Assembly (NCBI GenBank): GCA_963377175.1
Contig: CAUJNA010003294.1
Coordinates: 1,417,001-1,481,000 of the forward strand
Length of the DNA stretch: 64,000 bases
Direction: 5' to 3'
Source: Effrenium voratum
Taxonomy: Eukaryota > Sar > Dinophyceae > Suessiales > Symbiodiniaceae
The notes under the pieces are model-generated. The model made no database searches and had not been told where the DNA came from. It saw only the letters and a program-made list of their open reading frames with translations. Positions 36,749-60,379 of this stretch are shown one piece after another (positions within the stretch are counted from its first letter, which is position 1; every line of letters begins with the position of its first letter). The position numbers and the translations under genes are program-made.

Positions 36749-38288
36749 CTACCGGGCCGGCAGCCGCGACGCCCCAGGGGAAGATGGGCACGCCGCGAGA
36801 AGGTCACTCAAGTCCGGGCAAGGCCCATCAAGGTTGCTCAGGCCAGGGGAGGGCAAGGAAGTGAGGCTGTCAGCAAAGGCAAGCGAAGCTGCAGCGCACA
36901 ACAAGCCGGACCATCGGTGGACATAAGCACTTCGAAGGGCAGGGCGAAGGGCCTCCGGCGCGGCTCGGGCTCTGGCACGCGCGAGGAGGCGGAGAAAAGA
37001 GGCGGCCGCTGACCCCCAGCGGCCTCCGACCTCTACACCGATCACAACCAGGCGGCAGCGGGCGCTGGCAAGAAGCTCGGGGTAGGTTGCTTCCTTGCGG
37101 CGCCGGGCCTCCAGAAAAGCGACGGGTCGGGCCGGGTCGCGCCGAGAACGGGCCTCCCCAGCGGCGGTGAGCGGGGACACAATGGTCGTGTCAACCGCGA
37201 GCTGGGCCCCATTCCACAAAGGGAGCCCGTTGGCGATGACCTCGATGCGACGGTCATCAAAGCGAGAGACCGCCACATTGAGGTCACGGACAAGGGTGTT
37301 CGTGGTCACTCGAGCCCCGGCCTCGCGGCACACGCGGGCTTGCACGCTCGAGCGGGCAGCCTCGACTCCGGAGTGCACCAGACCGGGAGCACGCTGCACG
37401 GTGGTCGCCAAGAGGGTCAAGAGGGCGACGACACCGACAGGTGCGGGCGGACAGGGGCAGGGGGAGGCGGAGGCGCCGCAGGAGGAGAGCACGCAAGGGT
37501 TCGGAGGGGAAGGTGAGCTCAGGGCAGGTCGGAACGGTGATGAAAGGCCGACAGCTGAATGGGCCAGTCTGGGAAAACAGAAGGGCCTGCGAGGGCACAT
37601 CCAACTGAGCCAGGAGCTCCGTCTGGAGATGCGCGGCGACTGCGGCCGCAGCTGGCGCCTGCCAGCCCCGCGCGCTGGGTTCGGGCAAGTGGTCCTGGCT
37701 CATTGGACTGGGGAAGGGCTTGGGCACCGAGGATCACGGCATCCCATGTGGGCAAGTCAAACCCGCAGCAAGCGCTGCCTGTGACTGAAGCACGCCTCGG
37801 AGGGTGGGGCCGACGGGCTCGCCGGCTCCAAGCCTGGCAACAACGTCGGCGGCGAGGCGCGGGAGCTGGCGGTGCAGCACGGGAAGAGTGTCGGCCCACC
37901 AGGCCCAATACGCGGCCGGAGCGAGGGCGACCGCGGACCGCAGGTTGAGGCCACCTTGCTGGAAAGGGAGCTGGGCAAGGCGGAGCGCGTGGTCCGGGAG
38001 CGGGCCGGCCCCCAACAAATCCGCAATGCAGGCGGCGACAGCCGCGTCATGGGCCTCCGCAAAGGCGAGCGAAGCCACAGGTGGCAAGGACCGCAGAAGG
38101 TGACAGCAGCGCGGGGAAGCACAAAACAGAAGCAGCAACCATGCGGACTGAAGGTCGGGCAGCGAGAGCAAGTCCTGCTTGGCGCGTGTGGCTTGCAACT
38201 GGGTAGCAACATATGCAGGATGGCCGCAAGGAACCCCAAGTGCAACGAGCCCCTGTTGCTCGGGCGGCAAGGCTGGGTCACCGACCCA
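36749..38288 (-). pseudogene. Non-LTR retrotransposon, 3' half (thumb to endonuclease-like domain), severed by transposon insertion
   Basis: Starting exactly at 38288 the minus strand reads WVGDPALPPEQQGLVALGVP, LPDLQSAWLLLLFCASPRCC and LPFQQGGLNLRSAVALAPAA. After an in-frame stop near 37734 come LTFPSEPLRALLLRRLRLPL and TCRCRRPLDPLGDHRAACSR. A frameshift near 37300 leads to ARVCREAGARVTTNTLVRDL, LPLWNGAQLAVDTTIVSPL, RRRKEATYPELL and VVIGVEVGGRW. The D...RRRK pattern after a conserved GAQLAVDTT suggests a restriction-like endonuclease as in R2/CRE-type elements; this is inference. The missing RT half lies at 58053-59335. Confidence 0.72.
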
Positions 38289-38316
38289 CTTGGATGACCG
38301 GCTTGGTTGCTATCTA
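38289..38316 (+). repeat. Left TIR of the 19.8-kb transposon
   Basis: CTTGGATGACCGGCTTGGTT followed by GCTATCTA. It is the complement of the right TIR except one A/T difference. Flanked outside by CA, the presumed 2-bp target duplication. Confidence 0.88.
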
Positions 38317-38600
38317 CTTGTAGCAACTTAAAGCAACTTACTACTTGACTTGGCAGACTTACGAGGCGAACTTAGCAACTAGTTACGGGCCGACTTACTA
38401 TGTGAACTTAAGAATAGGCGCTAAGTAGGCCGCGGAGCACTTAGTAAGTGGTTTGGCTTAGTTACCTAAGCAAGCTATGTTTGCCGGGCCTACTTAGTAA
38501 CTAGGATAGAGTGGTTGCGTAAGTCTGCCAAGTCCACGTGGCATACTTAGCAAGTAGGCCGCTAAGTAGGATAAGCGTCGTTGGTAAACTTAGGTATGTA
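38317..38600. repeat. Left subterminal repeat region
   Basis: Dense, imperfect direct and inverted copies of ACTTAGTAAGTAGGCCG-type words, for example GCTAAGTAGGCCGCGGAGCA, CTTAGTAAGTGG and GGGCCTACTTAGTAACTAGG. Such arrays bind transposase or TNPA-like proteins in CACTA elements; here that role is inferred. Confidence 0.75.
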
Positions 38601-38976
38601 CAAAGATAGCTAAGCTACACACATAGCACGTCTCACGTTTCGCAGCGCATATTACTTGGCGGTAGCTGCACATGCGCGCTTTCAATCTGCTGCTGCCGTG
38701 GCTTTTGCTTTGGACAAAACAGGTGTAAACGCATGCATGTGTGTTCCAAACTGAATTGTCACATGTGCATCAAGTTGTTTATGCGCGAGTGTCAAACGGG
38801 TGTTTCAAAAAATGACCATCCAAATTGGGTTCGGGAGTCGGTTCATGCAAATCGTTTGCTTTGCTGCGGCAAGCTTACAAACACCTATGTGAAAAAAACG
38901 GCGGCTCATCCAAAATCAAGAAAACAACGCGCTTGTTTTCTCCGGCACGTCTTGCAACACTTCTCTGCGGGCCACA

Positions 38977-41024
38977 TCACCAAGTAGTGGATGGAACCAC
39001 TGACGGCGTGGAGGTGGCGCCATCCCGGTGAATACAGACATCCATTATCTGAGACAGGTCTGCCACAAGACTCTCGGCGCTCTTCTGGAACTTGTTGCTG
39101 CCCAAGGCGTTCCACTGCGTAACGCAGCAAAAGTTCTTGCCCATGGCAGTTGCAAAGAAATTCACTTCGCCCAAACACTGATCACCCGCATCGCCAACCA
39201 GCCTGACAACATCGCCAGCTGAAGCCTTTGAGCCAGGACTGAAAAACGCAGTTCGACTCACGCGAATTTCTCTGTCGAACCCAAGCTTGTGAAATTCCTG
39301 GCTGATTGCAGGCCCTGCTGCAGCTGGGCTACACAAGCCTCCATAGTATGGCTCACCAGGCGTGCCCGAAAGAGAATCCAGACTGTCACCCACTGCATCC
39401 ACTATGACAGACCTTTCAAACTTGGACCATGTGTTCGTAATGAGATTGGCGTGGCGTTTGATTTCCTTGTGCTTGCGCTCGTGCACCCAGCACGAGACTA
39501 AAGTCTTGTGCTGGGTGCACTGAGCTGGCAGGTGCAGCGCGTAGTGGTGTTTCGGCAGGAAACGCTCATATAGAGCTACATACCCTTGCAAGTGCCTCTC
39601 AATTGCCAGTCGAAGAGCCTCAGGGTCCCAGCCATCTTTTTTTTGCCGGACAAGTAAATCCAAGACTCTGCAGAGCCTGAAGTAACTGGCACACTCTGCT
39701 TTCAAGCTTTCAAGGCTTCAAGCTCGCCGTGCTTCCGCAACTCCCACAGGATGAACCTGACGACAGAGTAAACGCTCAAACATTCACTTGCTGAGCATTT
39801 GATGTCGCCATCCTGATCTTCTTTTGCGAATATGTTCACACCAGTCACACCTCGACCGGACAAGTAAGATGGCCAGGTGAATCTGTTGAGTTCGTCACGC
39901 AGCCTTTCCTGACCGACTCCATGCGCAGACAGCTTGCCGACCAAAGCGCCAAGCTCAACATTCCACAGACCTCCAACTGCATAGGTATGCATCCAGTCGT
40001 ACATCAAAAAACTGACGGGTTTGAGTGTCAAGATATCTGAATGCAGTAGGCCATGACAGTTGTGATTAAATCCCAACGCCTGCTCCATCTTTTTGAACGC
40101 AGTTTTACTCATACCGTCATTGCTGTGACTTGCCAAATATTTCACAGTCTCCAACAGAGTCTCATCCGAGTGAAGGTCCACACCAACTAGTGTGGTAGAG
40201 TTGCTGGGAACAAAATCCGTCGAATGGCGGTCCAGCTTGCTCTTCCAGTCGACAAGATTGCGGCATAGTGGACACAAAACAGTGCCACTCGCACCCTTCA
40301 TGTCTAGACTTTCTTTGAGCGCAACCTCATCTCCAATCACAATCGACAGGTCACAGAACAGCATCCTGCGCTCTCCATTGGGAAACACCAGCTGCACTCC
40401 ATGTCGAAGATCCACTGGAGAAAAAAAGCGTTCCACTGCCTCTCTGAAATACTGCGACATCTTTCCTGCCATCCTTTTAACATGATCAGTTCTTGCAACT
40501 CCAAGCAGAAACCAGTTCTTTTCCAAAGACAACGCCAAGTCACCAAATTCTTTGATCGACCAATATACGCATTCAACTTTGCGGGTCTGGTTGTGCGCAA
40601 GGACGTTGCCAGGCGATATGCCATCACTGTAGCAAATCAAGCTGAGTGGGGACGACTGGCTCGGCGTATACAGATCCAGCACCTTCAACATCATGTTTGA
40701 AAACTCTGGGCACTCAAGACACATGTGGCAAAGCAAAGGTATTGGCTGCACAAAAGGAAACTCCACAGTCTTCATCTCCTTGGGCTTGGTCACCGAGCCA
40801 GACTTTTTCTTCGTCTTCCCCACCGGCAGCAGCGTGACCTTCCAGTCTTGTAGGAGTTTGCCGTACCGGGTCTGCACATCAACGTCTGCATCCCGCCGTC
40901 TCTTGATCGTCTGTCTTGATGTTGCATCTGGAAAATCCTTCTTCTTCAGCTCATCCAGAACAGTACTCAGGCCAGAACGAGAGATGCCCTTACGCCTGCC
41001 AAGGTGGCCAACATTGGCGGACAT
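38977..41024 (-). pseudogene. tnp2-like (CACTA/Plavaka-type) transposase, one 8-bp duplication
   Basis: ATG 41024 (MSANVGHLGRRKGISRSGLS). Residues ~80-140: VEFPFVQPIPLLCHMCLECP, then SPLSLICYSDGISPGNVLAH. Residues ~230-270: LFCDLSIVIGDEVALKESLD followed by VLCPLCRN. Around residue 340: HGLLHSDILTLKPVSFLMYD and WMH. This order (Y.DG, then IGDevA with a C..C pair, then DWMH) follows the tnp2 transposase layout with its catalytic aspartates. The frame closes at 39702 after LEALKA because TTGAAAGC is tandemly duplicated. Removing one copy gives LEALKAECASYFRLCRVLDL and the ORF runs on to 38977, about 680 residues in total. No introns seen. It is the obvious candidate mover of the 19.8-kb element, perhaps only just disabled. 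Confidence 0.65.
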
Positions 41025-41512
41025 GGAAGAAAACCCAGCGAGCGAAGCGCCCGGCTAGGAGGTGAAGCAGTTTGCATCAAAGTGAGCTGTCGAGATGTAC
41101 ATGTATGTATCTATCTTTGCATACGCGTAACTATTGATTGATCTTCGTGTGTCTATTTGGCATTTAACATTGGAAACCGTGCGCAATTATGTTCTATCCT
41201 GTTCTCAAATCGGTGGTTGCAATGAAATCCGCGGCCTCGCCTTTGATCCCAAGCACAGACCCAACAGTTCAACCGGTTCACTGGCGCCATCACTCTGTCT
41301 CAAACAAGCAACGGGAAATGCATGGTAACGTTTTGAGGTCAAGATGCGTTGTCACAAGAAAACCGGCTAAGGCTGTATACCTGTGTCTGTCTTCACACAT
41401 CTACGTTGCACCGTTTCAAATCTGAAATCAAAAGCGCTCACGGTGTGACTACGGCAGTGGCGGAAACTCGAACAATGCCTTGTCTTGCCATGATACACTG
41501 CGCTCACAAATC

Positions 41513-43286
41513 TCATAAGCCCCGGGCAGCCATGCCTTCCTCGATGATTTCAAGGGCACGGTGAAACGATTTTACATGGTCATCGCCCAGTTTCACTTTT
41601 CGATCAATTCTGTCCGCCTTGTCGACAAAGGCCCGCCAACACGCGGACTTTGGGTTCTTGTGGATCTTGCCGGTCCCCCAAAAGAACGTCTCTGTCCAAG
41701 GGTCTGGCGGAGCAGGCTTAGGGCCCAAATCCTTTCGCGCCACAGCACCTTCCGCAGCACCTTCCTGAGGCGCAGCTGCCGCTTTCTTGGGACCAGGAGC
41801 TTTCTTCGCTTTTTCCTTCGCCGCAGGTTTCTTGAAGGTTGCTTCCTTCTTCTCCGCAACTTTCTCTTCTGACCTTCTCTTCTTTGCCTTGGGCTGCTTT
41901 TCTTCCGGCTCCGAAGCCTCCGCTCCATCCTCTGGCTCATCCACATCTTGCTTTGCCTCTGCGCGAGCTCTTTCACGGCTCTGGACGCCAGTCTTGAAGA
42001 CCTTCACATACTCCTCTGGTGTCTTTGCCTTTTTCTTGGCGGAAGCCGACGCTGCTGAAGCTTCCTCGTCTATAGGGACCTCAAAGGCTGGTTTCTGGTT
42101 CGGTGGCTTCATTTCGGCTGCGCTTGACTGCGTCTTTCGACTTTCTTGGCTATCATCTTCCAACGCACCCTCCAGCAAAGCTTTCTGCTCTGGCGATGTT
42201 CGATCGGCTTCTGCGGCATTTGGCAATGCCTTTGTCTTCCTCTTGTTACCAAAGATTTGCAAATTGGCCGCGCCATGCGCATCACCTTTGTCTGCACCCA
42301 TAAACTGCTGAATGCCGGCCATCATCAGCATCATAGGGTTCACTCCGCCCATGTTAGACTTCATCATGTGATCCATCTGCTGCATCATGCTGCTCATGGG
42401 GTTGTCATTCAGACTCACCTTCTTCACCAAACTGTGCGATTTTCTTGCAACCACTTTCGAAGACTCTGCACCAGCACTGTTCTGGGGCGGCGACGGCAGC
42501 TCCTCTTCAAACACTGCGTCATATATATCTTTTGGCAGCTTCCCAGGGTTGTCAGGAAACATCACTAGCAAAGACTTCTTCTCCATGTGCTTGATTTTGC
42601 TCTTCAACTGCTGCTTGAACTCGTTCACAATCCTCAAGGTGTCTGCTCCTTCTCCCACTTTCATGCCGCCTGGAGCACAGACACTGTTTCCAAGAAAAAT
42701 CACCCAATGCACACTGGCAAATCAACAACGAAATTGAAAGGGGAAGAGTCACGGCGCCACAAACACTTTATGCAACTTGCAACGCATCCAAGGCGCAGTC
42801 GATCGCGGTCTTGATGATCTGCTTGGTGGTGGTCTCTCTGGGCAAGTGAAGGCCCAACTTCACACACTTGGCAACCAACCTCTGGACCTTGTTGACGTTG
42901 TGAATATCTGGATCCGACAAAATCTGGCAATCGCTTTCTGTCAAGTAGGCAGCAAAGCATGTCAACGTCTGAAGAGGTCGTCTTGCCCTGGCTTGGTTTC
43001 CAGCTGCGGCCCCATCCATTTTGGACGCCAAAGCCTCCGACAGGACTTCGTGGTGCTGGTCAAGCCATGGCCCCTCACCCAGCAACTCTCCCACACGCGC
43101 AGCTTCCTCCGGTTTGATGTTCATCTCGTTGATTCTTGTGACCCAAGCTTTCACCTGGTTGTCAAGCATCTTTGTGAACTGCTCTTGTTTCACAGCGCGC
43201 TTCTGCGTCCCCAAGAAGCTCTGGATGTTCTCAAGGTCCTGGATGAGCAACTTGCCCGGTGTGGCATTGGATCCGCTGGCAGCCAT
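41513..43286 (-). CDS. Two-exon Lys/Ala-rich protein of the 19.8-kb transposon
   Basis: Exon 1 (42781-43286) starts MAASGSNATPGKLLIQDLEN. Exon 2 (41513-42683) starts FVCAPGGMKVGEGADTLRIV. The 97-bp intron opens with GCAAGT and closes ACAG, and joining keeps frame, giving 558 residues. Exon 1 is helical (LDNQVKAWVTRINEMNIKPE). Exon 2 has a Met-rich segment (MMQQMDHMMKSNMGG), then a long Lys/Glu/Ala region, and ends with ETFFWGTGKIHKNPKSACWR and AFVDKADRIDRKV, a C-terminal Trp-containing block that I associate with repeated dinoflagellate protein families. Not recognised functionally; an accessory DNA-binding protein of the transposon is one option. A broken copy of exon 1 lies at 49640-49990. 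Confidence 0.65.
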
Positions 43287-43794
43287 TGGGAGCTTGCGCA
43301 CTTCTGACGACAAAACGAGATGAGTACAGAGCGCGTGTTTAGTCTGACCTTTAGTGATGTTTGACATATCTATAGCAAACACTGCTTTTCACGCAACTGC
43401 AACGCTTTCCCGATCTGCACCTGGTGTCATGCACAGAAAATAATGCGAAAGACTGAGCACGGCTGCGGTCATTGATACAACGAATGCATGCGTGCAAACA
43501 TGCACAGCATGCGGAGTATGTTTGCCCGACGCGCCCAACTCTCAAGACCAAGTAAGAGTGCATCGCAATGAGTGTGAGATGCAAGTACTCTTGCAAGCAC
43601 TCTTTTACCAATGGGACATCCCAATCCATGGGGCAGTTGATGCAGCATCGAAACAGGACCGGAAGCAGGCGCCCGCCAGAAAGAGCTGATTGGAGCTGCC
43701 TGCCCGTTGGTGGTTGAAGTCCGAAGTGTGTCAAGGGCAACACGCCTGGATCAAGTCATACCATCACCTGCCAATCAGCAGCACAAGCAAACAA

Positions 43795-44035
43795 CAGAAT
43801 CAAGCATTGTGGTGCCAAACCAACCTCGAAGCCAACCCTGATCTCAAACACCATTGGCATCCCCATGCGCTGGACCTTGGCTCACGCTGCAGGCCAAGTT
43901 GAAAATGGCAGACATGCAATAACCAAGGCGCCCACCAAGAAGCCAACCCTGATCTCAGACATCATTGGCATCCCCTGCGCTGGCCTGGGCTCGCACTGCA
44001 TGCCAAGTCAAAAATGGCAGACATGCGATCTAAGA
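43795..44035. repeat. Tandem duplication of ~115-bp unit
   Basis: Two diverged copies each contain GAAGCCAACCCTGATCTCA, CATTGGCATCCCC and AAAATGGCAGACATGC. It is noncoding and lies upstream of the Lys/Ala-rich gene. Confidence 0.7.
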
Positions 44036-45371
44036 AATTACTATCACAGTTGAAGTCCTGAAGACACCAAAGGTGAATCTAATGGAGGGGAAACAAACAT
44101 GGCAATCCGACGCGATGCAACAACATCTGGAAAACAACGCAAATGCCAAGCATCATGTCACTAATACGGTTGATTGATTGAAACCGCCGGTATGATTGAA
44201 ACCGTCACAAACCGTCAAGCTCAAATCGTGAAGAGGTGGGCCAAGCCTTGTGGGCGAAGAAGATGGAGAAGTGCGGAGGCCTGGTCACACGACACGGGTC
44301 ACAACAAGATGACGAAATGAAGTGAGAATGACGGCAATATGATGACAACACGATGACAACATGCCCGTGCTCCCACTGTCACTGCCCACGCTTTCTCGAC
44401 ACCCGTGCTACGGTGCACGATGGAGGACAAAGTTTTTGCCACTATTGGGCGAATTCGACTTAGGATTGCATCTGTTGCTACTGATACGAGTATGTCCACA
44501 ACTAAATGGAGTACCCATGAGCATTCAGAGTCATATGTTTTAGATCTATTGGAAAACAATCTAAAAACTAAAAGCATACCCCTGCAACGATGCAATCCCA
44601 AGCAACCACGGGCGTGTTCCTGGCCACCCATGAATACTGTTCAGGCACCTTTCATTGTAAACCAAATCCACTACATATCTATGGAGACGTGATGCATTCA
44701 AACCAAACAGAACCGACAAACCAGGCCACACGCAAACACGCCCATGGATTTAGCTAATACTCAAGACTTGCTAGGCATTGCAAAACACAAGACAACAACC
44801 TTTGATTGTGAATCAGTCAGTGGTCAATGGTGGTTTCTGTAAACATTGGAGCGCCCTATATTAGTGGAACAAACTGGAACATCAAGATTAGTTGGAAATT
44901 GAAAGAATGGTTCCTCGCCCAGCAACTCATCTGCAATGCCCAGGATTCGCAGGCGCGTCGCTCGCAACCAAAGCGCCTCGTTTCTCAGGGTGTGCCTTGC
45001 CCCGTTTTTGGTGCTGTCTGGTGTTTGTTGTGTTTTTTTGGGCTTTACATGTTTGCCCTTTGCCACGCGATCCCATTTTGCACCTTGACCGTTGCGTGTT
45101 GTCGCATTTTCACCGTTTGGTTGCGCTCTTCAAAACTGCCGCCATGTCCTGGACAGCCGAGATGGTCTGCCGCCTCTCATCTGGGCTCATGCGGGCTGAG
45201 CTGGATGTGGCCTTGCGGGGCGACATATTGAAAAGCAGTTACAATGACGAGTTTGGTACGCGCATGCAAACATGTTAAAAGCTTCAACACCCAGCCTCCT
45301 CGTGGATTTCGTGGAGATGCTTGAACTGCTCCTCAGGAAATCACCAGTCGAAGATCACTTTCTAGTCACAA
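44036..45371. other. No supported gene
   Basis: Inside the 19.8-kb transposon. Repeated GATGACGA/GATGACAACA phrases near 44310-44365. Short ORFs are unconvincing. Confidence 0.4.
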
Positions 45372-47384
45372 TCAGACCTTCTTGCACACTTCACGCAACT
45401 GAAAATGAATCACTGTTTCCACTGCACGCAGTCGAAAGTCCTTGGCTCGGATCTGGGCTCCACCGCGGGTTCGAGCTCTCGTGCGTGTCGACCCCTCGGA
45501 GCGGTACTGCTCGATCTCCCACTCTTTCAGCAGCTTTCCGTCGACGCGGACGGTGCCGTCCGAAAGCCACACCTCCTGAACATGAATGGACTCTCAACGC
45601 ATCTGAAAAAATGACGCGCGCGACTTGAGCAAACTCTGACGCTGACAAGTTGCCTTCTTCTCGTTGTGCCACTCCACGTGGCTGACCGATGTCTCCGATG
45701 TCACCTGTTGCAAACATTGAACCGTAACAACAACCTGCAAACTCAATCCTCATGACAAGAAACTTCAACAAACAATTGCAAACGCGACCAACATAAGTAA
45801 CGCATGTCCATGCAGCCCTCCTCCGGCGGCGGCGGAGGAGGCAGCTGCCGCTCCCTCTGTCGCTCCATCTGTCGGGGATTGACTTCATGTTCATCAGCAA
45901 ACGCCAACAGGCTGAAATATGAAACTGCACTTGGATTCACTTGTGTACATACATATATATATATATATGATGATGATGAACGCATTGTAGCAACGCAGAA
46001 GCAAATATCACAGCAACGCACAATTATTCAGATCGGCCTTCATCTCCGCCTGCTTCATGGCCAGCTTGAACGCCAGATCTGCCAGGAAGTCTGCCGTCAG
46101 CTCCCCCGGCCCAGGCAAGGGAGCGTCCTGGTCCACACTGCACATTGAATGGATGTGGACAATGCGAGCACAGACACGCGCAACCCCCCACCTCCCCGTA
46201 GACCAGTCGGAATGCACCGATCCAGCCGTCATCCGGCACATCCGAAGTCTTGGTCTTCTGCTTCTTCTTCGCCTTCTCCAATGACGCCTGCGTGGAGAAG
46301 CTAACAATGTAGTCAAATGACCCATGACCTATGCATAAGATGCGCTTTGTGCGCGCTACTCACACACAGCTATCAACAACAAAGCTTTCAGTCCCTTCTG
46401 GACACGCCCACTGCCTCGCCACCAGAGTTGTCCATGGCCCGTTCCAAGGAGATGCAGCCCTGCAACGGATTGTGAGAAGAACACAACAAAGAACCATAAC
46501 TCATCCAAGCACAGCTTTGCAAATCCGTTGCCAAAAGCTCATATGGCCCCATGCCTCCATCGCCTTCGGCTTCCTCCACGGAGCCATGATCACCGCCGGA
46601 GCTGCCTGACTGCCATCATCAAATTTGACCATTGTGCTTTTTTGCACAAAATTTGAATTTGATGTATGGATATGTCTCAACACGGCGGCGTCCTTTTTGG
46701 TCCACAAAATGACAACTTGGGTAACAAAAAGGTGGCCTTATATTGGTGTGACCCATCATATCCATACGTGCACCACTGTGTGTGTAGTTGAGCGTTTGAT
46801 CATCGACGGAATGAGGCCGCCACTGGCTTCGGCATCTTCTTCGGCTGCACCTTGGCTCCGATCACGATGACCCCCTCCTCGTCGGTTTCCTCCTGATACC
46901 AAGTAACTTCGCACGACAAACGAAGGGAACTAGCATCAGAAGCGCAAGCCATGGTGAACACCCCTGCCTCCGGCGGCGGCGGCGGAAGCGGCTGCTCCTC
47001 CATGGGCTCACGCAAAGCTCTTGAGATACCAAGCAACTGTCACAACTCACAAAACACGCAGTAAACTTGTCTCAACACGCATTTTCAAAACTTCAGCAAC
47101 ACACACATAAACATAACTCCAGCAACGGGAATGAAAGTGAAGCTGTCCTTCTTGTCGTCAGGGCTCCATGCGCCCCACTCCTCCTCGCTGCTCCACGAAG
47201 CCATGGCGCGGTCTGTGTTGATTGTTGGCTGCAGTGCCTTGTTCAGTTGAAATGCCTGTTTGGGGCGGTGCGCACAACCTATGTGCTCGAAGTGGCTGCC
47301 TGAGCCTTGAAAGTTGACGACCATGACACAGTTAAAGACATATACGTCTGGCGCGTTTCTATGTAAATGTTCTAAACATATCAT
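45372..47384 (-). CDS. Cluster of short exons, unrecognised gene(s) in the 19.8-kb transposon
   Basis: Minus-strand coding-like pieces, in transcript order, are: MASWSSEEEWGAWSPDDKKD (~47150-47205); MEEQPLPPPPPEAGVFTMAC through EVTWYQEETDEEGVIVIGAK (~46803-47010); MVKFDDGSQAAPAVIMAPWR (~46545-46633); GCISLERAMDNSGGEAVGVS (~46390-46462); EKAKKKQKTKTSDVPDDGWI with GAFRLVYGE (~46195-46285); DQDAPLPGPGELTADFLADL (~46020-46140); ERQLPPPPPPEEGCMDM (~45805-45880); and VWLSDGTVRVDGKLLKEWEI (~45375-45575). They are separated by stretches that open GT or GC and close AG. One or two genes may be involved, and two exons share a PLPPPPP-E-G motif. Function unknown. Edges are approximate. Confidence 0.4.
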
Positions 47385-47424
47385 GCGAGTATGAATCTAT
47401 AAGGAAAATACGTGTTGGTGGATT

Positions 47425-47590
47425 GGTGCTGCGATAAACAACACCAACAACACAAAGGCAGGCCCCATAGGGGCAACCGGGTGTGACAGTCTATCTATAT
47501 AGCTGTGTGATGCCTGTAAACACCAACAACACAAAGGCACGCCCCATAGGGGCAACCGAGTGTAACAATCTAATGATGCCTGTATCTGTG
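47425..47590. repeat. Tandem duplication of ~85-bp unit
   Basis: Two copies containing ACACCAACAACACAAAGGCA, CCCCATAGGGGCAACCG and GATGCCTGTA. CCCCATAGGGG is itself an inverted repeat. Confidence 0.75.
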
Positions 47591-48069
47591 GTGTGTGTGT
47601 ACCCATAGCAGATGTTCAAATGCTGCCTAAGAGCCATCCGTCTGCGGTTTGCAAGCACGCTCACGCACAAGTCACAAAGCGGTGGCTGACTCCCCTTCAT
47701 CCAGTCCCAAGCGCGCCTCTTGTTGAAGAGCTTGGCATGAACCCGACCTGTCAAGACCGAACGCAACTCAAACACGCCACAAAAGTTCTGCGAAATCGAC
47801 ACGAAACAACACATCCCACTATGTCACCATGGCGCTGGGAAAGCTCGCAAATAGTGCTGGGCTAGCTCGCGCCGCTCAAGGAACGCATTCCAACACACGA
47901 CCCAGGCCTCATCCATCCTCGATCGCTATGGGAAAAACTCATCTCCGCCTGGCAATGGGTATAGATGGAAACATGTGTTGTGTCACTTCTTTACAATCCT
48001 GAAGCTGATCATCATCCAAGACGGCCGCATTTCAAAGTGTGTGGAATCACATGGTTTTAAACTGCAGAC

Positions 48070-48230
48070 TTGTGGGTCCACAAATTCCTAGCTTCAGAAG
48101 TTGTGATTCCACAAAAAAAACCTAATGACACTATTCACAGTTTGTGGGTCCACATATTTTCGGATTCAAACTTTGTGGGTCCACTTTTTTTTGAAATGCA
48201 AATTTGTGGGTCCACAAAAAACCAAACTCC
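48070..48230. repeat. Dispersed TTTGTGGGTCCACA motif array
   Basis: Four exact or near-exact GTGGGTCCACA words at roughly 30-70-bp spacing, plus one diverged form (GTGATTCCACA), within an A/T-rich stretch. No gene here. Confidence 0.7.
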
Positions 48231-49639
48231 CCATCTCTCGAAAAAAATGACACAAAAAATAAGGGGGAACTCTCGCAATTTTTTTTTTAGGATTTGGTGA
48301 ACCTTCAAGATTTTTGATGAATTGTGATGCTTTCCCAACGTTGCAAACATTCGAAAACACAATAACGTCCCTATGATTTTTGTGTTTTTCAGTTTCAGGT
48401 TGAACCTATGTTTTATTTGTTTTCTACAAGAATATCAGGTAGATAGTGCTCAGATACACCTCATCCCCATCCATCCTCGCCTCAAGAAAAGCGCTCCAAC
48501 AAGTAGTGAAGTCGGCCTGCAAAGCTGCACCTGGCAAATGGCACAATTGAAAAGAACCTGCAATGAAATGCATGAGGGTAGCGAGCACACCATGCCCAGC
48601 TACCAGAACAAGCAACGAATGCAACATCCCTTTAGTTCAGACACACCAATGCAAATACAAGGCAATTAACAGCAAGTATGTTGACAAGTTCAGCTGGAAA
48701 AGCAAGCCTGTCCACATCCCCCAACGCACCTTCACACGCGCCTTGAAGCGGGCAAGACGCACCAATGTCCTGGGCAAGGGCGTGGACAGTATCCTACAAT
48801 CTACATCCAGGTCAGCATCAAATCAAACCATCAAGATTGACTACTTCTTTAAAGTTGCAAGCCCTGGCCTCTCGCGTCGGGGTGGAAATCGAGCTGCAAC
48901 CTACATCCATGCAGGAATGAATCAGTCTATAACGAATTGCAAACAACCGGAACTACCAAGATTCAGAAGTTCGGTTGCTCAAAACTGAAGTGCTACCAGG
49001 AAGCAACCAGCTCCGGATTGTTTTATCGCCTGCTACTGCAGGCATCAACGATGCGGTGGACATTACTCTACAAATTACATCCAGGAATCATTCACTCAAT
49101 ATCGGGTTACCACCAATTGAACCTATCAAGATAGACTAGTTCTATTGCTCAAAACTCAAGGACAACCAGGAAGCAAATGCTACAGCAAGGGCTGTTCTAA
49201 CGCTTGCTGTTGCCGGCATCAGGTTAAAGTAGTTCTATGGTTCAAAAAAACTCAGTCATCTAGTTTGGGTTTGATAATTAACATGTCTATTGACGGGACG
49301 CGTCCATGGGGCGCTTTGCAGCAGCCAACTATACTCTAAAACGCCGAAACACTCCGACAGTCCTGCTTTGGAGTAGCTGCGGGGAGGGCGCAATAACATG
49401 CCACTGAATGTGTAGTGAATGTGCGCACATTCTCAATCTCATGGAATTCAAAAAACCGCAGCGCAGCAACAGCCAAGGCCCGGACCCACTCATCAAACAC
49501 TGAATCAACAATCCAAAACCTGATCAAAATCCAACAATTCAAACATGTTTATAACTACGGCTAAGCTTCTTACGCGCGCACATGCTGGGACAGCTCAAGC
49601 ACTTGAGCCACAGGTCAATTTAAAAGGCAATCTGTCAGC
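48231..49639. other. No supported gene
   Basis: Noncoding by eye. Repeated phrases such as CTACA..CTACATCCAGG and AACCAGGAAGCAA occur between 48780 and 49190. Confidence 0.4.
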
Positions 49640-49990
49640 CAGGCAGCAAAGCATGTCAACGTCTGAAGAGGTCGTCTTGGTTTTGGTTTGTTTCCAGGTG
49701 CGGCCCCATCCATGTTTTGGACACCAAAGCCTCCGACATGTTAAGGTTGGTAACGGTCAAGGTTGGTTCCTTCATTTAGCAATTCACACGCGGTTTGCAA
49801 CCCACACATTCAGCTGGTTGTCAAGCTTTGTGTTGGTCTGTTTTCACAATGCGCTCCTGCGTCCCCAAGAAGCTCTGGATGTTCTCAAGGTCCTGGACAT
49901 TAGATCCGCTGGCAGACGACAAAACGAGATAAGTACAAACCGCCTGTTGACATATAGCAAACACTGCATATCACGCAACTGCGCTTGTGT
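49640..49990 (-). pseudogene. Degenerate copy of exon 1 of the Lys/Ala-rich gene
   Basis: Matches 42950-43395 in pieces: AGGCAGCAAAGCATGTCAAC, GTCCCCAAGAAGCTCTGGAT and GTTCTCAAGGTCCTGGA are shared, with several internal deletions and no long frame. Same orientation as the parent. It shows duplication within the transposon or capture from a sibling copy. Confidence 0.7.
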
Positions 49991-50821
49991 AGAGGCAACC
50001 CGCCAAAAAACTCCTTTTTTACTGGTTTGCCACTTCGGCTGAAAACTGATGTGTTTCCAGGCCCAGTACGTTCCAGATCAACGCAAAATCAAAAACAGCA
50101 AATACAAATAAAGAAAATGCACTTCCTGGTTCGCAATGAGATTGAAAATTGCAAGTGCTAGCAAACGCCGTGACGTTGTACGCTCTTTGTTTTCTTGCGC
50201 TTGCGACGCGTCGCGCGATCTCATTGATCTTCAGAAACATTGCCCGTCGCAAACTTGGCCTCCATGTCACACTTGATCCTGGCTTTCTCAGATTCGGACA
50301 TAGCCCACGTAGCGGCGACATCCTCAAAAGGTATCCTTAGAGCAACACGCACGCGAACACGCGCAGTCTACTGTTCTTAATGTTTTTCCAAGTCGCGTAC
50401 GGCAGGGCCCATCAAGACGAGCAACTTTCCACTTGAGGCCATTGTCCATGACCCACGAGCAGGACCAAATCACCTTGCTGGCATCGTCGTTCTCACTGAT
50501 GGTTCGCTTCATCATGCGCGGCATGATGTTCTTGCGCGAGAGTGCGCGATTCAACGATTCCTTTTGGACAGCTTAAGGCTTAGCACGGCTGCGCAAAAAT
50601 CACACACGGCGTCGCACATGGACTTTGTTGACGTATAAGAATCTGGTCGCGAATAGACAAGGCAATCACAAAGCAAAAATCAAGCCAACACACAACAGAT
50701 CTTTTGGAGACGACTCACTTGAAATTGAATGTAGCGCCACGCATCAACAACTTGCAGCATCATGTGAAATTCATTTGGCGCTTCAACATGCAAAAGGAAG
50801 GACAAATCGCGCGAGCAACAC

Positions 50822-51012
50822 TTGCAGGAAATACTGCGACATCTTTCCTGCCATCCTTTTAACATGATCAGTTCTTGCAACTCCAAGCAGAAACCAGTTC
50901 TTTTCCAAAGACAACGCCAAGTCACCAAATTCTTTGATCGACCAATATTCAACTTTGCGGGTCTGGTTGTGCGCCAGGACGTTGCCAGGCGATATGCCAT
51001 CACTGTAGCAGT
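50822..51012 (-). pseudogene. ~185-bp near-identical fragment of the tnp2-like transposase
   Basis: Matches 40446-40636 almost base for base (shared AAATACTGCGACATCTTTCC to GGCGATATGCCATCACTGTA), lacking 5 bp (ACGCA) and with about one substitution. Both flanks are unrelated to the parent. The divergence is far lower than that of the exon copy next to it, so it is a recent event. Confidence 0.8.
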
Positions 51013-51044
51013 CACACTGGCATTCTATACAACAAATCTACGGC

Positions 51045-51897
51045 CTAGCCTGGCAGCTCCAGCTCCTGGGGTGCTTGAGGTAACTCTGCTGCATCCGCCT
51101 CCTTACTCGGTCTCCACTTCAGTTTTCTACGTTTCTTCTTGGGGGACGCAATCTTCTGTTCATCCCTACCCTTCTCTACGGCCGGCGAACATTCCAACGC
51201 GCTGAAGCAGTATCGGAGATTTTGGTCTGTCAGGTCTATGTGAATGTCTTTGCTCTTGACACTCCACAACATGTGCATTTCGGTCTCGTCAACGGCACTT
51301 CCTTGCCCATCTGTAAATGCAGGAAGGGTGACTGAGACGCAGCGCGCGATCACGAATTTATCGTCCTCGCGAGCTTGCCGGAATTTCGGCGGCTCTTCTC
51401 CATCTTGCACCCCACTTAGCATATGCTTCCGTAAAATGTCCGTGCAAGCGTCATGTCCTGAGCGCGCAATCTATAGAGCGGGGTTTTGCTTTACGTTCAA
51501 GCAAAAACAGGTCTGGCATATCTTCTATACTTTCATGATCTAAAAAAAGCATACTTGAAGGAAAGGGTGAGGCGCTCAGTTTCGTTGTCTTCTCCCACCA
51601 CTGGACATTCAGACTGTGGATGTCCCTTTTTGCATGCCTGTTCTGTCCTCTTCCAGTCACTATAAAACAAAGGCCTGGGTCAGTCTTTGATAGGGTCACG
51701 TACGTTCGGCCGTCAACCTCCTGCGTCTTAGGGAACCAAGGCCGCCGATTCCCCAACACCACTCTGGTCACATTCTCAATCACCAGCGGCAGGGGGCCAC
51801 GCTCTTCCAGCTCAGCCTGCTCCTCAGCCTGCTCCTCAGCCTGCTCCTCAGCCCGCTCCTCAGCCTGCTCCATCATTGCTGGATCACCTTCCTCCAT
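51045..51897 (-). CDS. Two-exon unrecognised gene in the 19.8-kb transposon
   Basis: Exon 1 starts MEEGDPAMMEQAEERAEEQA, with a short Glu/Ala tandem repeat (EEQA x4), then PLPLVIENVTRVVLGNRRPW, TYVTLSKTDPGLCFIVTGRG and LNVQWWEKTTKL. Exon 2 (to stop 51045) has PPKFRQAREDDKFVIARCVS, DETEMHMLWSVKSKDIHIDL and a basic tail (SPKKKRRKLKWRPSK) that could be a nuclear localisation signal. The break between exons lies around 51425-51560; splice points are not fixed. It is not a family I know. Codon use and exon style match the other transposon genes. Confidence 0.5.
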
Positions 51898-52277
51898 GGC
51901 TCAAACCCGATCTGTTTGTTGTATGGCACTGCGTGTGTGTTTGCAAAGCTTGAAATCTAAACTCCCTTATCACGCGGTTTTGCTTCTGGCACGCGAGCTT
52001 CTTCAAAAAGCCCAGCAGCCTGCACAATTCACAGAATCTCTTGAAGTTCCAGGACAAGGCAAGTCAATGCTTGCAGAACTCAGTGCTGCACATCTGCAAA
52101 GCTGCACATCTGCAAAGCTAAATGTGGCTCACTTTGTTGACCCGCGCGCTGGGCACACGCTCGCGCAGTCACAAATGAGGTGTTGGTCTCACAACAATGA
52201 CAAATTGTTGGCCAAGGCATCAAAAAACGCTTAAGACACTTTGGCATGTGACATCTTAACTGCCAACCATAGGCTTC

Positions 52278-55200
52278 TCAACCAGTTCGCAGCCTTTTGG
52301 AAGGCGCGGCCCTCAACGGCTCACCCTGCTGCGCCTTGTCCTTCTTCTCCGTGTGCAAACATAGCTCATCTCCTTCCGCCAACTTGCCAGAGTTGCGAAG
52401 GACTGGCAGCACAATCTCCTTGTCAAGCTTGATGACCTTCGTCTTCAAGACATCGATGGAGGGGAAGACCTGCGCAGAGCCGCCATGAATCAAGTTCGCG
52501 CAAGGTCTTTGAAAACAGTGTACCTTCACGTAAAAACCTACAAACAGATGTATGCGTATGTATGTATACATGTGCCTGTAAATGCAAGTTTGAACACACA
52601 TACATTTACATATACAACCCAATTGGTGCATTTCTCTGTCTCTGCTTACGCCAACATATCTATGTACACAGATGTACATATAAACACATAGTCTCAATGA
52701 TTTGACTCAGCAAAACGTGTATGCAAGCAATCGATGTGTGTACAATACGTACCAACTTTCGGAAAACACGCACACGCTCAGCCAATCAGCTGGTACACGC
52801 CTTGAAAGCAGAAACACCAAACCTCCCAAGCACAAGACACCGCGCAACTTCAAACCGTGCCTCCATGTTGGCATCGTCAGCTTCACTTGTCCTCGGCACT
52901 AGCCAGAAAGGGTTCTGGAAGCCATCGCCCGGCGCGGCGCCAGTCTTGGAACAGCTGCCAATGACCACCATGTAGTTCTCAAATGTTCCAATGGGCAACT
53001 GGTCTGCCGTGGTCTTGCTTGCCTCAATCAGCCAGATGCGAGTACTGGCGCACGGCAAGTGGAGCTTCTTGGGAGGCCAACTCTGCGCAACTTTGACAGC
53101 CTTCGGGTTTGCAAAGAGCTGCAGAGTATCCCAGCCTTGCAACTTCGCGCACTGCTTTGCCATAGCCTCGAACACTTTGCCCTTCACCAGACAATGTTGG
53201 AAGTCCAAGCTCGAAGGTGGGGAGTGCTGCAGCCACGTCACCTCCAGCTGCGGCTTTGGCTCACTGTACTGCTTCCACTCGTTGGCGATGAACGATGCAG
53301 CGGACACAAATACCTTGCTGTCCTCCACGGTCAAGCGCACCTCATCACCTTGGACACGGTCGATCTTCGCCACAGTGCTGCCGCGCTGCACCTGAGAGCC
53401 CACAGCAAAGCCCATCGAAGCCATGACTGCTGGAGCGTTTGTCAGCACACCTTTGTCGTTGTATTCTCTCAAGATGGTGTTGGTGGAAGGCGGCTGCTTG
53501 GGAGACGGCTTCTTCTGAGTCTGGCCCCATTGGCTTGGCGTCGCCAGCGCGACACCAATTTCGTTGGCAAAATCCTGCAACACCTGTCGGGCTGCATCTT
53601 CCATCTTGTCGTGCGTTCTGTTTTTCTTGTCAAGCGCGCATGCTGCCAAGTGTACTTCTAAGCTGCCGTGCGCACGCTGGAACACCAACTGCTTGGTCTC
53701 GTCGTTGGCGTAGGGTTCTGTCACTGCGGCCCACTGGTCGAGCAGCTTCATTGCGCACGATGCCTTCTGCACGACCTCCTTGTTTGTCATCGCTCGTTTG
53801 GCCTCGGATGTCTACTATTTTCGCAAGCGAACTTGATTGAAGCCATTTCATCTTGGGTTGCGATCATGTTTTGAAGAGAAAAGAGCAAGCGAGCAACATG
53901 CCCAACCTGCAAGGACATTGACAGCAACGAGAACTGATAAAAAAAAATGTTTCCCGGCGGCATCCGTGGCTGTGATCGGCATGACCCCACTGTATGCATA
54001 CTTCAGCAGCGCGTGTCTCCAACGGAGGTGGTCGGGGAAGCTCTTCATCTCTTGGGATAGTATGGCCCAAGTTTCCTGGCCAAGCTCCCGGCCCCCCTTT
54101 CCACACGTTCTGGCGTAGGCTTGTGTGTCCGCCAACATCTTGCTGGAGCCACCAAATCTCACTACAAAGGCGAAGATGGACGGAGCACAGGGGCCGCACT
54201 TTGGTCTGCTCCGCAGAACAGTGGCAGAGACGTCCTGCCACTTCGGAGCACTGGCGCCTGGCCAGGAGGTGATGGCCTGCTTCACCTTGTTGATGAGCTG
54301 GAGCTCATCCTCCTGTTTGGATATGCTTTGGTTTGTGTTTCCACTCTGGCACACCAGGTCCAGGAGCTGCGGGAACTCCTTCCAAACAACTGCCTTGATG
54401 ACTTTCCAATCACAGCCATCTGCAATGGCCTTCCTCCACTCTCCTGGAATTTCATGGAGGCTCAGGTCAGCCAGTCCCAACCCGCCATGGAAAATTGCCC
54501 TTGCCGCCATGTTGGCGTGCGAGCCACAAATCGTCGCGTAGCGGATCTCCTCCGCAGCTGGCAATTTGCCACCAGACTCCATGGCCAGTCTCCGATTGTA
54601 ATCCCTGCCATCAAAACCAACGTTTAATTATGTTCGACACACGCTTCAAAAATGGCCTGGCGCCTGGCACCCATATGTTTGATGATACACAGTCGTGTTT
54701 CAACACATCATGTCCTTTTAGATACAATAATTTGCCAGCTTCGCCTGCCTTGTGCACTCTGAGGCTGGGGAACCATCCAACTCGACGCAAACACGTGTGG
54801 AGACGTCATCCACATACCCCACGGCCGAGATATTCTTCATAAGATCCACCATGTGGTTCAAATCAATTCCTGTCCCGCCTCTGTTCCCATGATGGACCCC
54901 AAGGTGAATGCATCTTATCCTCTGAACGTGGACCAAAGTCTCCTTCTCCAAGTAGTCCAAAGCCTTCTTTGAGATCGCCACCATGCCTTCATTTGCAGCG
55001 GCCTGAACGTACTTCTGGATCTGGTCTCTCTGCGCCTGGTTCATGGCTTCAGACACTTCTTCAGCACAGACAGCACAGACCTGACTACGTGACGCATTTC
55101 ACAAAACCGTGGCGTTGAGTGTGGAATGTCTTGATGACAGGATCTGGCCAGGTCACATAGCATGCCTGGCAATTCACAAAGCCCTTCATGCGCTAGAATG

Positions 55201-56804
55201 CATGCGTCTGAGAGATAAGATATGAGCTGAAACATGGCTGCGGCGCACGCGTGCAAGCATGCACAGCATGCAAGTGCATATCTGAGTGAAACTCAACTTG
55301 GCCGCTAACATCAAACACATGGACAACGGCATTTGTGAATGCTGCACCTCCACTAAAACCGAACTGCGCCGAGTACGAGAGTCACATGTTGTTTTACAGC
55401 TGCTGGCGGCGACGGTGCCACATCAAAAACCGAGCAATCAATCGAGTCCATCGAGTCAAAGCCCCGGAAGTCCATCACCCACGTCATCCACTGAATCAAA
55501 GACCTGCAAGCACTCAATCCAACTGACAGAACAATGCATCCACTCAGTGGGAAATTGAAAAAGAATATCCCGAAGCACCTGTTGGACGATGATGGAAATT
55601 TCATTTCAAGCAGCAATCTATACTAACCCTTCACTGATGCATCCAAACCATTGGCTTCATTTCCCTTGCTCTGCAAGAGGCAGAAAGCATGGGTTGGACA
55701 AAGGCCGTTTTTGTTGCGTTTTCAAAACCATCATCAAGTTTATACGCCTAATGTTTGGTAGGGTTGGCAAACTGATCTTTGACTGAGCCCTAAACCCTAA
55801 AGGCTTTGACGATTTGCAAATCCGAGCCGCCTTCGTCGGAATCTCCATCGCTCATCATCTGAATGTCACTGAAGGGCCGGACTGATCTTTCCTCTTCTAA
55901 GATCTTCGCGTCATGCGTTGTGTCGGGTTTGAAGATCAAAGCGTTGGGCTGGAAATCTGCGCTCAACGTCACATCTGTGACGGGGGTGCAAACATTGAAC
56001 TGAACCAAGTGGTCCAGCAAGTGGTGCAAAGCTCGGCGCTGAGTGATTTTTTCCTGACACAAGGAAGTTCGAGACAACAAGTCTGGCTGAATCCTGCTAA
56101 ACATCGAGTCAGCTTCTACTTGGCGCAACGGAGAAATGCAACATTCTCCAAAAAATCCGAACTGCGAAACACTAGACATTCCCAAAACGTTGGCAAGAAA
56201 CGTTGCTGTAGAAGAACTTGGTGGTGATGCGTGTCCCTGAGGCGCTGTAGTGCCATGAAACCGCGCGCGCCAAGCCATCATCTCGAGTCACAATCTCTTG
56301 GTTCACCACCAACTTTGGACGTGACTCGTGGATCAAAACACCAATGCGTGGGAATCTCTCCTGGCAATGAGCATACACCAGCATTGGTCTGCCTTTCCAT
56401 TCTGTCCTCTCCTCATATTGAAACTTGCACGCTGACCCACCCCCCTGCGCAAACATGCTCAGGAAGATGTCTTCGTGCGCCAAGACTCGAGCATACTGAC
56501 CCGGCCACAACTTTGTGAAGTCTCTGGCCTTCACGGACCGGTCCGCGCGCTTCAACACGCAGTACTCCATGCAAACCATGGACTGCTCAAAATGAGCTTC
56601 ATGACCCGTCATCACGCTGATCGAAGCGTTCACCAAGCCAACATGTTTGAGATCGTGTTTGATTTTACCTCTTGCCGTGTTGTGACACTTTGAACATTGA
56701 CTGCGCGTGTGAAGCGAGCAAATCTTATAACCTCTTGAACATGTGAGTTTCATGCGCCATGCTTGTGAACTTGGTAGAGCCAAGGAAACTTGCATGTCAA
56801 CCAT
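52278..56804 (-). CDS. Multi-exon unrecognised gene(s) in the 19.8-kb transposon
   Basis: The minus-strand open segments read as protein, in order: ~56230-56690 (ARGKIKHDLKHVGLVNASIS, VLKRADRSVKARDFTKLWPG, RFPRIGVLIHESRPKLVVNQ); 55790-56230 (LLDHLVQFNVCTPVTDVTLS, MMSDGDSDEGGSDLQ); ~54780-55042 (MNQAQRDQIQKYVQAAANEG, HHGNRGGTGIDLNHMVDLMK); ~53960-54582 (ARAIFHGGLGLADLSLHEIP, CGKGGRELGQETWAILSQEM); 52800-53790 (MTNKEVVQKASCAMKLLDQW, VGSQVQRGSTVAKIDRVQGD, IWLIEASKTTADQLPIGTFE); and 52278-52485 (VFPSIDVLKTKVIKLDKEIV, stop 52278). About 800-900 residues if one gene. The stretch near GSQVQRGSTVAKIDRVQGDE resembles an SH3/KOW-like strand set, which is tentative. No known family was recognised. Exon limits are approximate, and two genes are possible. 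Confidence 0.45.
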
Positions 56805-57619
56805 GATGGCGTTGATTCATGTCGGCTACCAAATTGACCAATTGTCAGTGGCTCAAAGAGTTTGGACGAAGCAGTGTCAAAACTTGGACAGCAGCAGCAG
56901 TGTTTGTTGCGTCAAGGCACAGTCATAAACAAAAATCATTGACTGAAATGTGCGGTTCCAAAGTTTGGTCAAAACAGATTCCATGGGTGCATGTTTGTTT
57001 GACGCTGAATGAAACCTCAAATTCTTCTCTTTTCCAAGTTCATTTCCAAAACTGCAACAAAACGTAAACCCTCTTGATGAACTATCGCTAAACTCTTGTT
57101 CGGTAAACCTCATAACATTTGAGCCATCGGCGTTTTGTATTTTGTTTGGAAACGACACACGCGAGCACATGTTGAAAGCAGCAAAAACAAATAACCCAAC
57201 AGCTGGGTCTTTTTCGACGCATGAACTAGCCCAGGTATATACAAGGCAACGCCAACAAGACAGCCGGAAAAAATGTTGCCGCTGTCCATTTTCCAACTTG
57301 TTCGGGCAAAAGCTTCCACATCTGGCTGTCCAATTTGGGGGCGCTTTATTCTGTAGAAACCCTTCGGCCACGCTAACATGCATTGAAAAAAAGGGACCCA
57401 TCTTGTATTTCGCACACGCATGCGTATGATTCCGCATGTAAGCTAACAAGAACACCGCTCAACTACTGTGGGCACCAAAATTACAAAGAACACACACGAA
57501 CGCCAAACCTTTCAATTTCAACTTCAAAACCTACCAAAAACACATCTCCGCCTCCTTCATCTGAGCATTTCCATATTGCGAGGCGAGCTCATGCGCTCGC
57601 GCACCGACCAAAACGCGCA
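56805..57619. other. No supported gene
   Basis: Noncoding by eye, between the multi-exon gene and the right subterminal repeats of the transposon. Likely 5' flank of that gene. Confidence 0.35.
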
Positions 57620-57624
57620 TAGCA

Positions 57625-57960
57625 ACTAGACCCTGGCGCGCTTAGTAAGTAGGCCCCGGCGTACTTAGTAAGTAGGCCCCGGCGTGCGGGGTAAGTAGGC
57701 CCCGGCGTACTTAGTAAGTAGGCCTCGGCGTACTTAGTAAGTAGGCCGCGATCAACTTACTAACTTGAATATCATACTTGATAAGTTACTTAGTCAATGT
57801 AAGTATGTAGGTTATTTGTTTAGCAACTTCATCAACTTAACATGGCTTAGATACAAAAACCTTCTCTAAGTAGGCCGTAGCAACATAACAAACATACTAT
57901 CTACATAGCAGAAGAGCGTCAATATAGCAAGTAGGCCAGGTGAACTTGATAGAGTTAACC
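57625..57960. repeat. Right subterminal repeat region
   Basis: Five tandem ~22-bp units of the form CTTAGTAAGTAGGCCCCGGC at 57640-57750, then looser ACTTACTAACTTG / AAGTAGGCC words to about 57935. These match the left subterminal words. Confidence 0.85.
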
Positions 57961-58024
57961 CAATATATAACTTGGGTTAGAACATGTTAGGGAGCAATAT
58001 ATAAGTAGCGCAACCAACGCCATC

Positions 58025-58052
58025 TAGAAAGCAACCAAGCCGGTCATCCAAG
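58025..58052 (-). repeat. Right TIR of the 19.8-kb transposon
   Basis: TAGAAAGCAACCAAGCCGGT followed by CATCCAAG on the plus strand. Followed outside by CA, the second copy of the presumed target duplication. Confidence 0.88.
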
Positions 58053-59335: not shown

Positions 59336-59374
59336 GGAGGAATTATAGGAATTTGGGCGGGCACTGGAAAAAGA

Positions 59375-59566
59375 GTTAGAATCTTGATCACTGCTTCAAG
59401 CCTACAGGGACATGCAGGGAAAAAAGCATCCGACCGAAGCAAACTCGACACGCGCTTTTTTACTTGAGCGTTGCTTAGAAGTGCAGGCTCTGAGATGCAG
59501 GTGGAGTGACGATGCGCGTCCACTCCATCTTCCTGCATCTCATGCGGAGCCTGTCGGAATGCCCCC
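59375..59566. repeat. 192-bp direct repeat, copy 1
   Basis: By eye identical to 60188-60379. It starts GTTAGAATCTTGATCACTGC and ends TCGGAATGCCCCC. The 3' part folds: CAGGCTCTGAGATGCAGGTG pairs with the complement of CTGCATCTCATGCGGAGCCT. Confidence 0.88.
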
Positions 59567-59814
59567 TGTGGTCAACATTGCGTGTTCGACCATCACACAG
59601 GGTGTTTTACCCATGGGGTGTGAGACAAATAGGAGGTATTTTGCACATCGGTATGCAATGCGTGCATAGGTGTGCATGGGAGGAATGCGTCCTCCTGAAG
59701 GGGACCAGGCTGGTCCGACAGAATGCCGATGGCATTCAGCGATGTGCGACTGCGTGCACAGCATGGGTTCAAACTGGTGTGGCCAACGAGGAATGCGTCC
59801 TCACTGCATAGGCT

Positions 59815-60015
59815 TAAACTGGTCCTGCGGGATCAGTAAGCCGACAACATGCTTGATGCTGGAAAGCTTGCCGACAACGCGTGTTCAGCAATCAGCTATC
59901 AGGCCTCTTTGCACAGGCTAAACGGGTCCTGCGGGACGCAGTAAGCCGACAAAATGTTGGAAGCGGGAAAGCTTGCAACCATGCGTGTTCAGCAACCCAG
60001 CAATCAGGCCTTGTG
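59815..60015. repeat. Tandem ~105-115-bp repeat, two units
   Basis: Each unit carries GGTCCTGCGGGA, CAGTAAGCCGACAA, GGAAAGCTTGC, CGTGTTCAGCAA and ATCAGGCCT. It lies between the two 192-bp repeats. Confidence 0.75.
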
Positions 60016-60187
60016 GAAGTTGGTTTCCACCTGGGCCGTGAAAGGGTGGGAGGGTGGGTTCAAAAAGAACGAAAGAGGGGTCAGACCCTCAAGGCATGTC
60101 CCTTACTAAAGGGCTTGAAGCAGAAACAGCCACGCGGCCGAAGATTCAACCAAGATTAAAACACAGGGGAAAAGAAAAACCCCTAGC

Positions 60188-60379
60188 GTTAGAATCTTGA
60201 TCACTGCTTCAAGCCTACAGGGACATGCAGGGAAAAAAGCATCCGACCGAAGCAAACTCGACACGCGCTTTTTTACTTGAGCGTTGCTTAGAAGTGCAGG
60301 CTCTGAGATGCAGGTGGAGTGACGATGCGCGTCCACTCCATCTTCCTGCATCTCATGCGGAGCCTGTCGGAATGCCCCC
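60188..60379. repeat. 192-bp direct repeat, copy 2, with hairpin
   Basis: Same sequence and fold as copy 1. It ends 45 bp before the stop side of the retroelement ORF at 60424 and could be part of that element's 3' terminal repeats. Confidence 0.88.

Follow-up and report, generated by a model that had tools for sequence, protein, structure and literature searches.

A 19.8-kb, probably CACTA-like DNA transposon inserted into a decayed retrotransposon of the dinoflagellate Effrenium voratum

Introduction

Several known transposons come close to the element analysed here. Tgmt*, a 20.5-kb CACTA element of soybean, encodes a transposase and a presumed DNA-binding function (PMC2613891), and enlarged En/Spm families of 16–20 kb with 4–5 ORFs are described from the red alga Chondrus crispus (Kojima et al. 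2013, cited in PMC6431247). SmTRC1, another element of interest, is flanked by 2-nt direct repeats in 7 of 14 copies (PMC1636069). EnSpm-like fragments have already been named in dinoflagellates, since RepeatMasker recognized a 119-bp EnSpm-like stretch in a 779-bp read of Alexandrium (PMC3229502). DNA transposons have been reported for Symbiodiniaceae, their families not being given in the parts of the article consulted (PMC8045281), and introners are the subject of a further study (PMC7789003). Among the literature matches listed, which mostly leave aside subscription papers, no dinoflagellate CACTA-like element of the present type was described.

We analysed a 64-kb stretch of the E. voratum assembly (hereafter the window), which contains an element of 19,764 nt at 38289..58052. 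We consider it likely that it is a single CACTA-like (CMCT-type) cut-and-paste DNA transposon, which entered an RT-type retrotransposon in one insertion accompanied by a 2-nt CA duplication. It resembles Tgmt* in its length, its short terminal inverted repeats (TIRs) and its asymmetric subterminal repeats. The two differ in their ends (CACTA in Tgmt*, CTTGG in the present element), in their TIRs (imperfect and 13 nt long versus 28 nt) and in the target duplication (3 nt versus 2 nt); a tnp2 domain can be recognised in Tgmt* (PMC2613891), and the present element gave no domain match. The Chondrus families, likened here by description only, are similar in size and in having several ORFs (PMC6431247). 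SmTRC1 and the TRC group share with the element the 2-nt direct repeats, an inverted repeat of comparable length in one member (27 nt) and the location of two copies inside retrotransposons; their first two D residues are 80 positions apart, versus 91 in the element, and the domain that contains the second D also has a CxxC. They differ in having TIRs that start with CCC and proteins that carry Transposase_21, which is unmatched in the element (PMC1636069). Plavaka and ESTA elements also show 2-nt duplications (2 or 3 nt for PlavakaB) and C(2)C and H(3-4)H motifs between the second D and E, but the ends of PlavakaA (TGT..ACA) and PlavakaB (CATCA..TGATG) and the TA duplicated by ESTA are all unlike those found here (PMC12730594). 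The initial annotation of this locus had presented the element as unusually long; as a novelty this is not borne out, CACTA elements of 16–20.5 kb being already in print (PMC2613891, PMC6431247).

Ends and target site

The two borders are defined by the following features:

38287..38288, no strand: CA, left copy of the 2-nt target duplication
38289..38316, plus strand: left TIR, 28 nt, starting CTTGGATGACCGG...
38388..38560, no strand: left subterminal repeats, with 3 nonamer sites (AAGTAGGCC twice, GGCCTACTT once) and palindrome-like ACTTASTAAGT motifs
57620..57937, no strand: right subterminal repeats, with 7 nonamer sites, all AAGTAGGCC on the plus strand
57620-57747: 23-nt tandem array within the right subterminal repeats
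58025..58052, minus strand: right TIR, 28 nt
58053..58054, no strand: CA, right copy of the 2-nt target duplication

The TIRs are identical at 27 of 28 positions and separated by 19,708 nt. When their 22-nt core was searched with up to 3 mismatches, the 64-kb window gave two matches, which are the two ends (0 in 100 shuffles). The core had 0 matches in viral_contigs, one of four collections (with genome_contigs, phages and plasmids) of viral, bacterial, archaeal and plasmid sequence used in this work. The border letters read ...CGACCCA|CTTGG on the left and CCAAG|CACACC... on the right, which fits a 2-nt CA duplication and not a 3-nt one; such a 2-nt flank match alone has a chance of about 1 in 16, for the single insertion examined. 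We rejected the idea that the outer CA belongs to a CACT terminus: the right side carries CA and not TG, so that the two copies lie in direct, not inverted, orientation. Measured over 200 nt, the G+C content falls from 0.62 to 0.465 on entering the element at the left border and rises from 0.41 to 0.625 on leaving it at the right one, while the interior is fairly even (0.45–0.52 in 2-kb steps).

The subterminal zones share a nonamer, AAGTAGGCC or its counterpart GGCCTACTT, whose 10 sites in the 64-kb window all fall within 400 nt of the element ends, where dinucleotide frequencies predict 0.33; as the nonamer was picked after the repeats had been seen, this count is a description more than a test. 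Three sites, in both orientations, are located 134–263 nt from the left end, and seven, in a single orientation, 115–397 nt from the right end. A 15-nt version of the motif, allowing up to 3 mismatches, is present on both strands at both ends, with 14 of its 15 matches there. When the window was cut into 400-nt tiles and their own neighbourhoods were left out, the left and right zones were reciprocal best matches by shared words. The observed count was reached by 10 of 1747 (k = 8), 5 of 1736 (k = 9) and 9 of 1738 (k = 10) random internal 400-nt pairs, which may reflect the internal duplications.

The interrupted retrotransposon

The host retrotransposon region and a related copy to its left are the following:

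34362..35593, plus strand: related RT copy, uninterrupted but decayed, used as paralogue
36749..38288, minus strand: decayed left half of the host retrotransposon region, C-terminal
58053..59335, minus strand: decayed right half of the host retrotransposon region, N-terminal, containing FAYLDD

The FAYLDD motif of the right half is typical of reverse transcriptases. Once the element and one CA are removed, ...GSTDAPV runs on into WVGDPALPPEQ... without a change of frame, a match that by itself would occur by chance in 1 case out of 3. No stop interrupts the joined frame between 58690 and 37737, and its G+C content is lowest at the second codon position on both sides. The initial annotation had stated that excision restores the reading frame exactly. 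The local continuity APV-WVGDPAL stands, but the host copy was frameshifted and stopped independently of the insert: a frameshift occurs 86 residues before the join, a stop 184 residues after it, and the conserved-looking upstream QGHPLMPAL (ending at 58308) is out of frame with the join-crossing frame (HYALGQ, from 58312). The halves as first delimited contain 8 stops in 513 codons on the left and 1 in 427 on the right. Because the host is frameshifted upstream and stopped on both halves, the join restores the continuity of a decayed retrotransposon copy and not a working ORF.

A single tblastn match of the paralogue spans the junction (E 9e-17 for a 2.5-kb target and with no composition correction; 414 columns with 82 gaps and 28% identity), and the paralogue's segment from GKTR to VPDLQAAWL (34559-34915, plus strand) spans 45 residues with no insert, versus 64 in the joined host copy. 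Judged by this alignment, the paralogue shows that the two halves belong together; it does not give the exact pre-insertion letters, since it is decayed and poorly aligned at the junction residues. The claims of the initial annotation of bounding 28-bp inverted repeats with one mismatch and a duplicated CA were confirmed by repeat comparison and by the flank letters, and a single insertion with defined ends is supported by the TIRs, the CA duplication, the subterminal repeats, the G+C steps and the insert-free paralogue.

Five flank frames searched against Pfam at E up to 0.1 gave no match, and for the joined RT stretch none of the 9 candidate stretches in viral_contigs and none of the 105 in genome_contigs was confirmed. 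Further along the same flank, a second RT-like frame is present on the minus strand at 60427-62133 (RVT_1, E 3.6e-06, 27.3 bits, below the cut-off of 29.6). Between the two, at 59372-60379, two 195-nt direct repeats, 99.5% identical and with starts 813 nt apart, may represent short LTR-like sequences or a duplicated unit.

The candidate transposase

The leftmost coding region of the element contains:

38980..41024, minus strand: candidate transposase with D134, D225, C251-x2-C254, H324-x3-H328 and E513 (read-through numbering) located by eye; no Pfam match
39698..39713, minus strand: 8-nt tandem duplication breaking the transposase frame

Frames 39705-41054 and 38980-39717 read as one protein, split by the 8-nt duplication. 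The latter is too short for an intron, an explanation which we rejected, and might be a sequencing error. Because its transposase frame is broken, the present copy can probably no longer move by itself. The succession D, D, CxxC, HxxxH, E is the order given for the CMCT clade in PMC12730594; the assignment of C251-PL-C254 and H324-GLL-H328, between D225 and E513, is a by-eye choice on one sequence.

For the read-through sequence, Pfam at E up to 10 gave no convincing match (best E 0.11; the HMMER filters drop most weak matches). Transposase_21 (tnp2) was absent among the Pfam matches at E up to 10 and at E up to 1, a result that a distant relative could escape. The 450-residue frame 39705-41054 had no match in a PDB sequence search (of four such searches in all, three gave no match and one a single match at E 2.6), and single-sequence AlphaFold2 produced no usable fold for it (pLDDT 33). 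Relatives of the same frame were sought in viral_contigs (2 patterned stretches, 0 confirmed), in genome_contigs (34, 0 confirmed) and in phages and plasmids (no match).

Other coding content and internal structure

Ranked by length, the first four stop-free frames inside the element (450, 402, 341 and 259 aa) belong to the minus strand, and a plus-strand frame of 252 aa, which overlaps the 341-aa one, comes fifth. Nine frames reach at least 200 aa (7 minus, 2 plus), versus a mean of 1.5 in 200 Markov-2 simulations. In these simulations the longest frame had a mean of 232 aa and a maximum of 405 aa, and only the 450-aa frame exceeds all of them. A second-position G+C dip of at least 0.08 was seen in 10 of 17 minus-strand versus 4 of 21 plus-strand frames of at least 120 aa, and all 4 of the latter overlap minus-strand frames with the same signal. 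By frame length and codon-position G+C, several minus-strand ORFs are therefore coding-like, in agreement with the several genes announced by the initial annotation. Besides the candidate transposase, the interior contains:

41516..42721, minus strand: 402-aa coding-like ORF, K/E-rich, no family match
42771..43388, minus strand: coding-like ORF of 206 aa that may be an upstream exon of the 402-aa ORF 41516..42721
49631..49897, plus strand: decayed internal duplicate (72%) of part of the 206-aa ORF, 42937-43243
50828..51010, plus strand: partial internal copy (96%) of 40446-40634, a transposase piece (189 nt)
51048..51900, minus strand: two overlapping coding-like ORFs (51048-51470, 51454-51900)
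52281..52706, minus strand: 142-aa coding-like ORF
52789..53811, minus strand: 341-aa coding-like ORF, no family match
53851..54627, minus strand: 259-aa coding-like ORF, no family match
54721..55098, minus strand: 126-aa coding-like ORF, sub-threshold Pfam match only (Vitellogenin_N, E 0.0068)
55793..56816, minus strand: two ORFs that overlap each other (55793-56287, 56175-56816), their coding signal being weaker

Family scans covered the minus-strand frames of at least 120 aa, 11 of 17 against Pfam and 6 against NCBIfam, and their best match, at E 0.0068, falls short of its curated cut-off. The 11 ORFs scanned with Pfam, of the 17 minus-strand frames, contained neither PolB nor integrase, the hallmarks of Polinton/Maverick elements, and no TET/JBP match. 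Two further element ORFs gave 5 and 2 candidate stretches in viral_contigs, 0 confirmed. Intron candidates between neighbouring ORFs, examined by eye, had no unique solution. By their motifs, the RT and the candidate transposase look dinoflagellate-like; a search for a dinoflagellate spliced-leader relic gave no hit, and Rfam and tRNA scans returned 0 matches.

Assignment and alternative explanations

Compared with the defining traits of known families, the element combines a partial fit with clear departures. Instead of the CAC(TA)..(TA)GTG termini of CACTA/EnSpm elements, or the CA..TG found in most cases for the CMCT clade, it ends in CTTGG..CCAAG. Its 2-nt CA duplication falls within the ranges of CACTA/EnSpm (2–3 nt) and of the CMCT clade (2 to 5 nt), and, as in CACTA/EnSpm, a subterminal motif is repeated at both ends. 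CACTA membership is not established, because no Pfam model matched and because of the CTTGG..CCAAG ends; the element is CACTA-like in its working parts and not a demonstrated CACTA member. By analogy with the En/Spm system and its TNPD and TNPA (PMC2613891), its movement can be pictured as follows: the 39–41 kb ORFs would encode a DDE transposase, other ORFs (41.5–43.4 kb or 51–57 kb) might supply an accessory DNA-binding protein, the two proteins would pair the ends through the subterminal repeats, and cutting at CTTGG..CCAAG would be followed by insertion with a 2-nt stagger. The lack of a Pfam match and the departure from CA..TG would suit a cut-and-paste element outside the CMCT group, be it KDZ, hAT-like or of an undescribed DDE superfamily. 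We regard this as unlikely, since the duplication has only 2 nt, versus the 8 nt of KDZ (Zisupton) elements and, usually, of hAT ones (PMC12730594), and since the D-D-CxxC-HxxxH-E order and the subterminal repeats fit a CACTA-like element. That the assembly had joined unrelated sequence by chance inside the retrotransposon is extremely improbable: TIRs, target duplication and subterminal repeats match at both borders.

A different question is whether the 19.8 kb between one transposon's ends form a coordinated gene set, which is the only point denied by a composite origin, in which a shorter element with the same ends and the same insertion would have grown by capturing pieces of host genes, by duplicating internally and by taking up nested insertions. 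The two partial internal duplications, an almost identical, out-of-frame one and a decayed one, point to internal rearrangement and leave room for such an origin. It would also account for the coding-poor region from about 43.8 to 51.0 kb, whose one minus-strand frame of at least 120 aa has no codon-position dip, and for the tandem repeats at 43.8 and 48.1 kb. However, the 25 longest inverted repeats, out of 56, include no strong internal TIR pair, the G+C content of the interior is even, and the frames with a codon-position dip lie mostly on one strand; we hold a composite origin to be a real possibility, on balance somewhat doubtful. As for the preferred reading of a single CACTA-like transposon, it may be extended, tentatively and with less conviction than the reading itself, to a founder of an undescribed giant CMCT-related lineage, with CTTGG..CCAAG ends, a transposase beyond the Pfam models and several otherwise unknown genes moving along.

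Significance and neighbourhood

The element looks like a clearly bounded member of a seldom-met size class, within a kind that is already known. The borders of large transposons are difficult to establish, and its exact ends, target duplication and diagnostic nonamer provide a handle for a family search in long-read assemblies, and for asking whether its ORFs move together. If the lineage exists, it would represent a multi-gene mobile element that Pfam domain-based annotation would miss.

The window contains other repetitive and mobile sequences. Large arrays of a unit of about 148 nt occupy 22911-26000, in opposite orientations on either side of about 24 kb. An element of 9.2 kb at 9904-19064, whose core has 31% G+C and whose inverted ends measure about 700 nt (93%), is a Polinton-like virus or a relative of one. 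It contains a piece of viral-type DNA polymerase B (Pfam DNA_pol_B_2, E 4.4e-12), which is 62% identical, in the best segment, to a 17.4-kb IMG/VR contig (L001).
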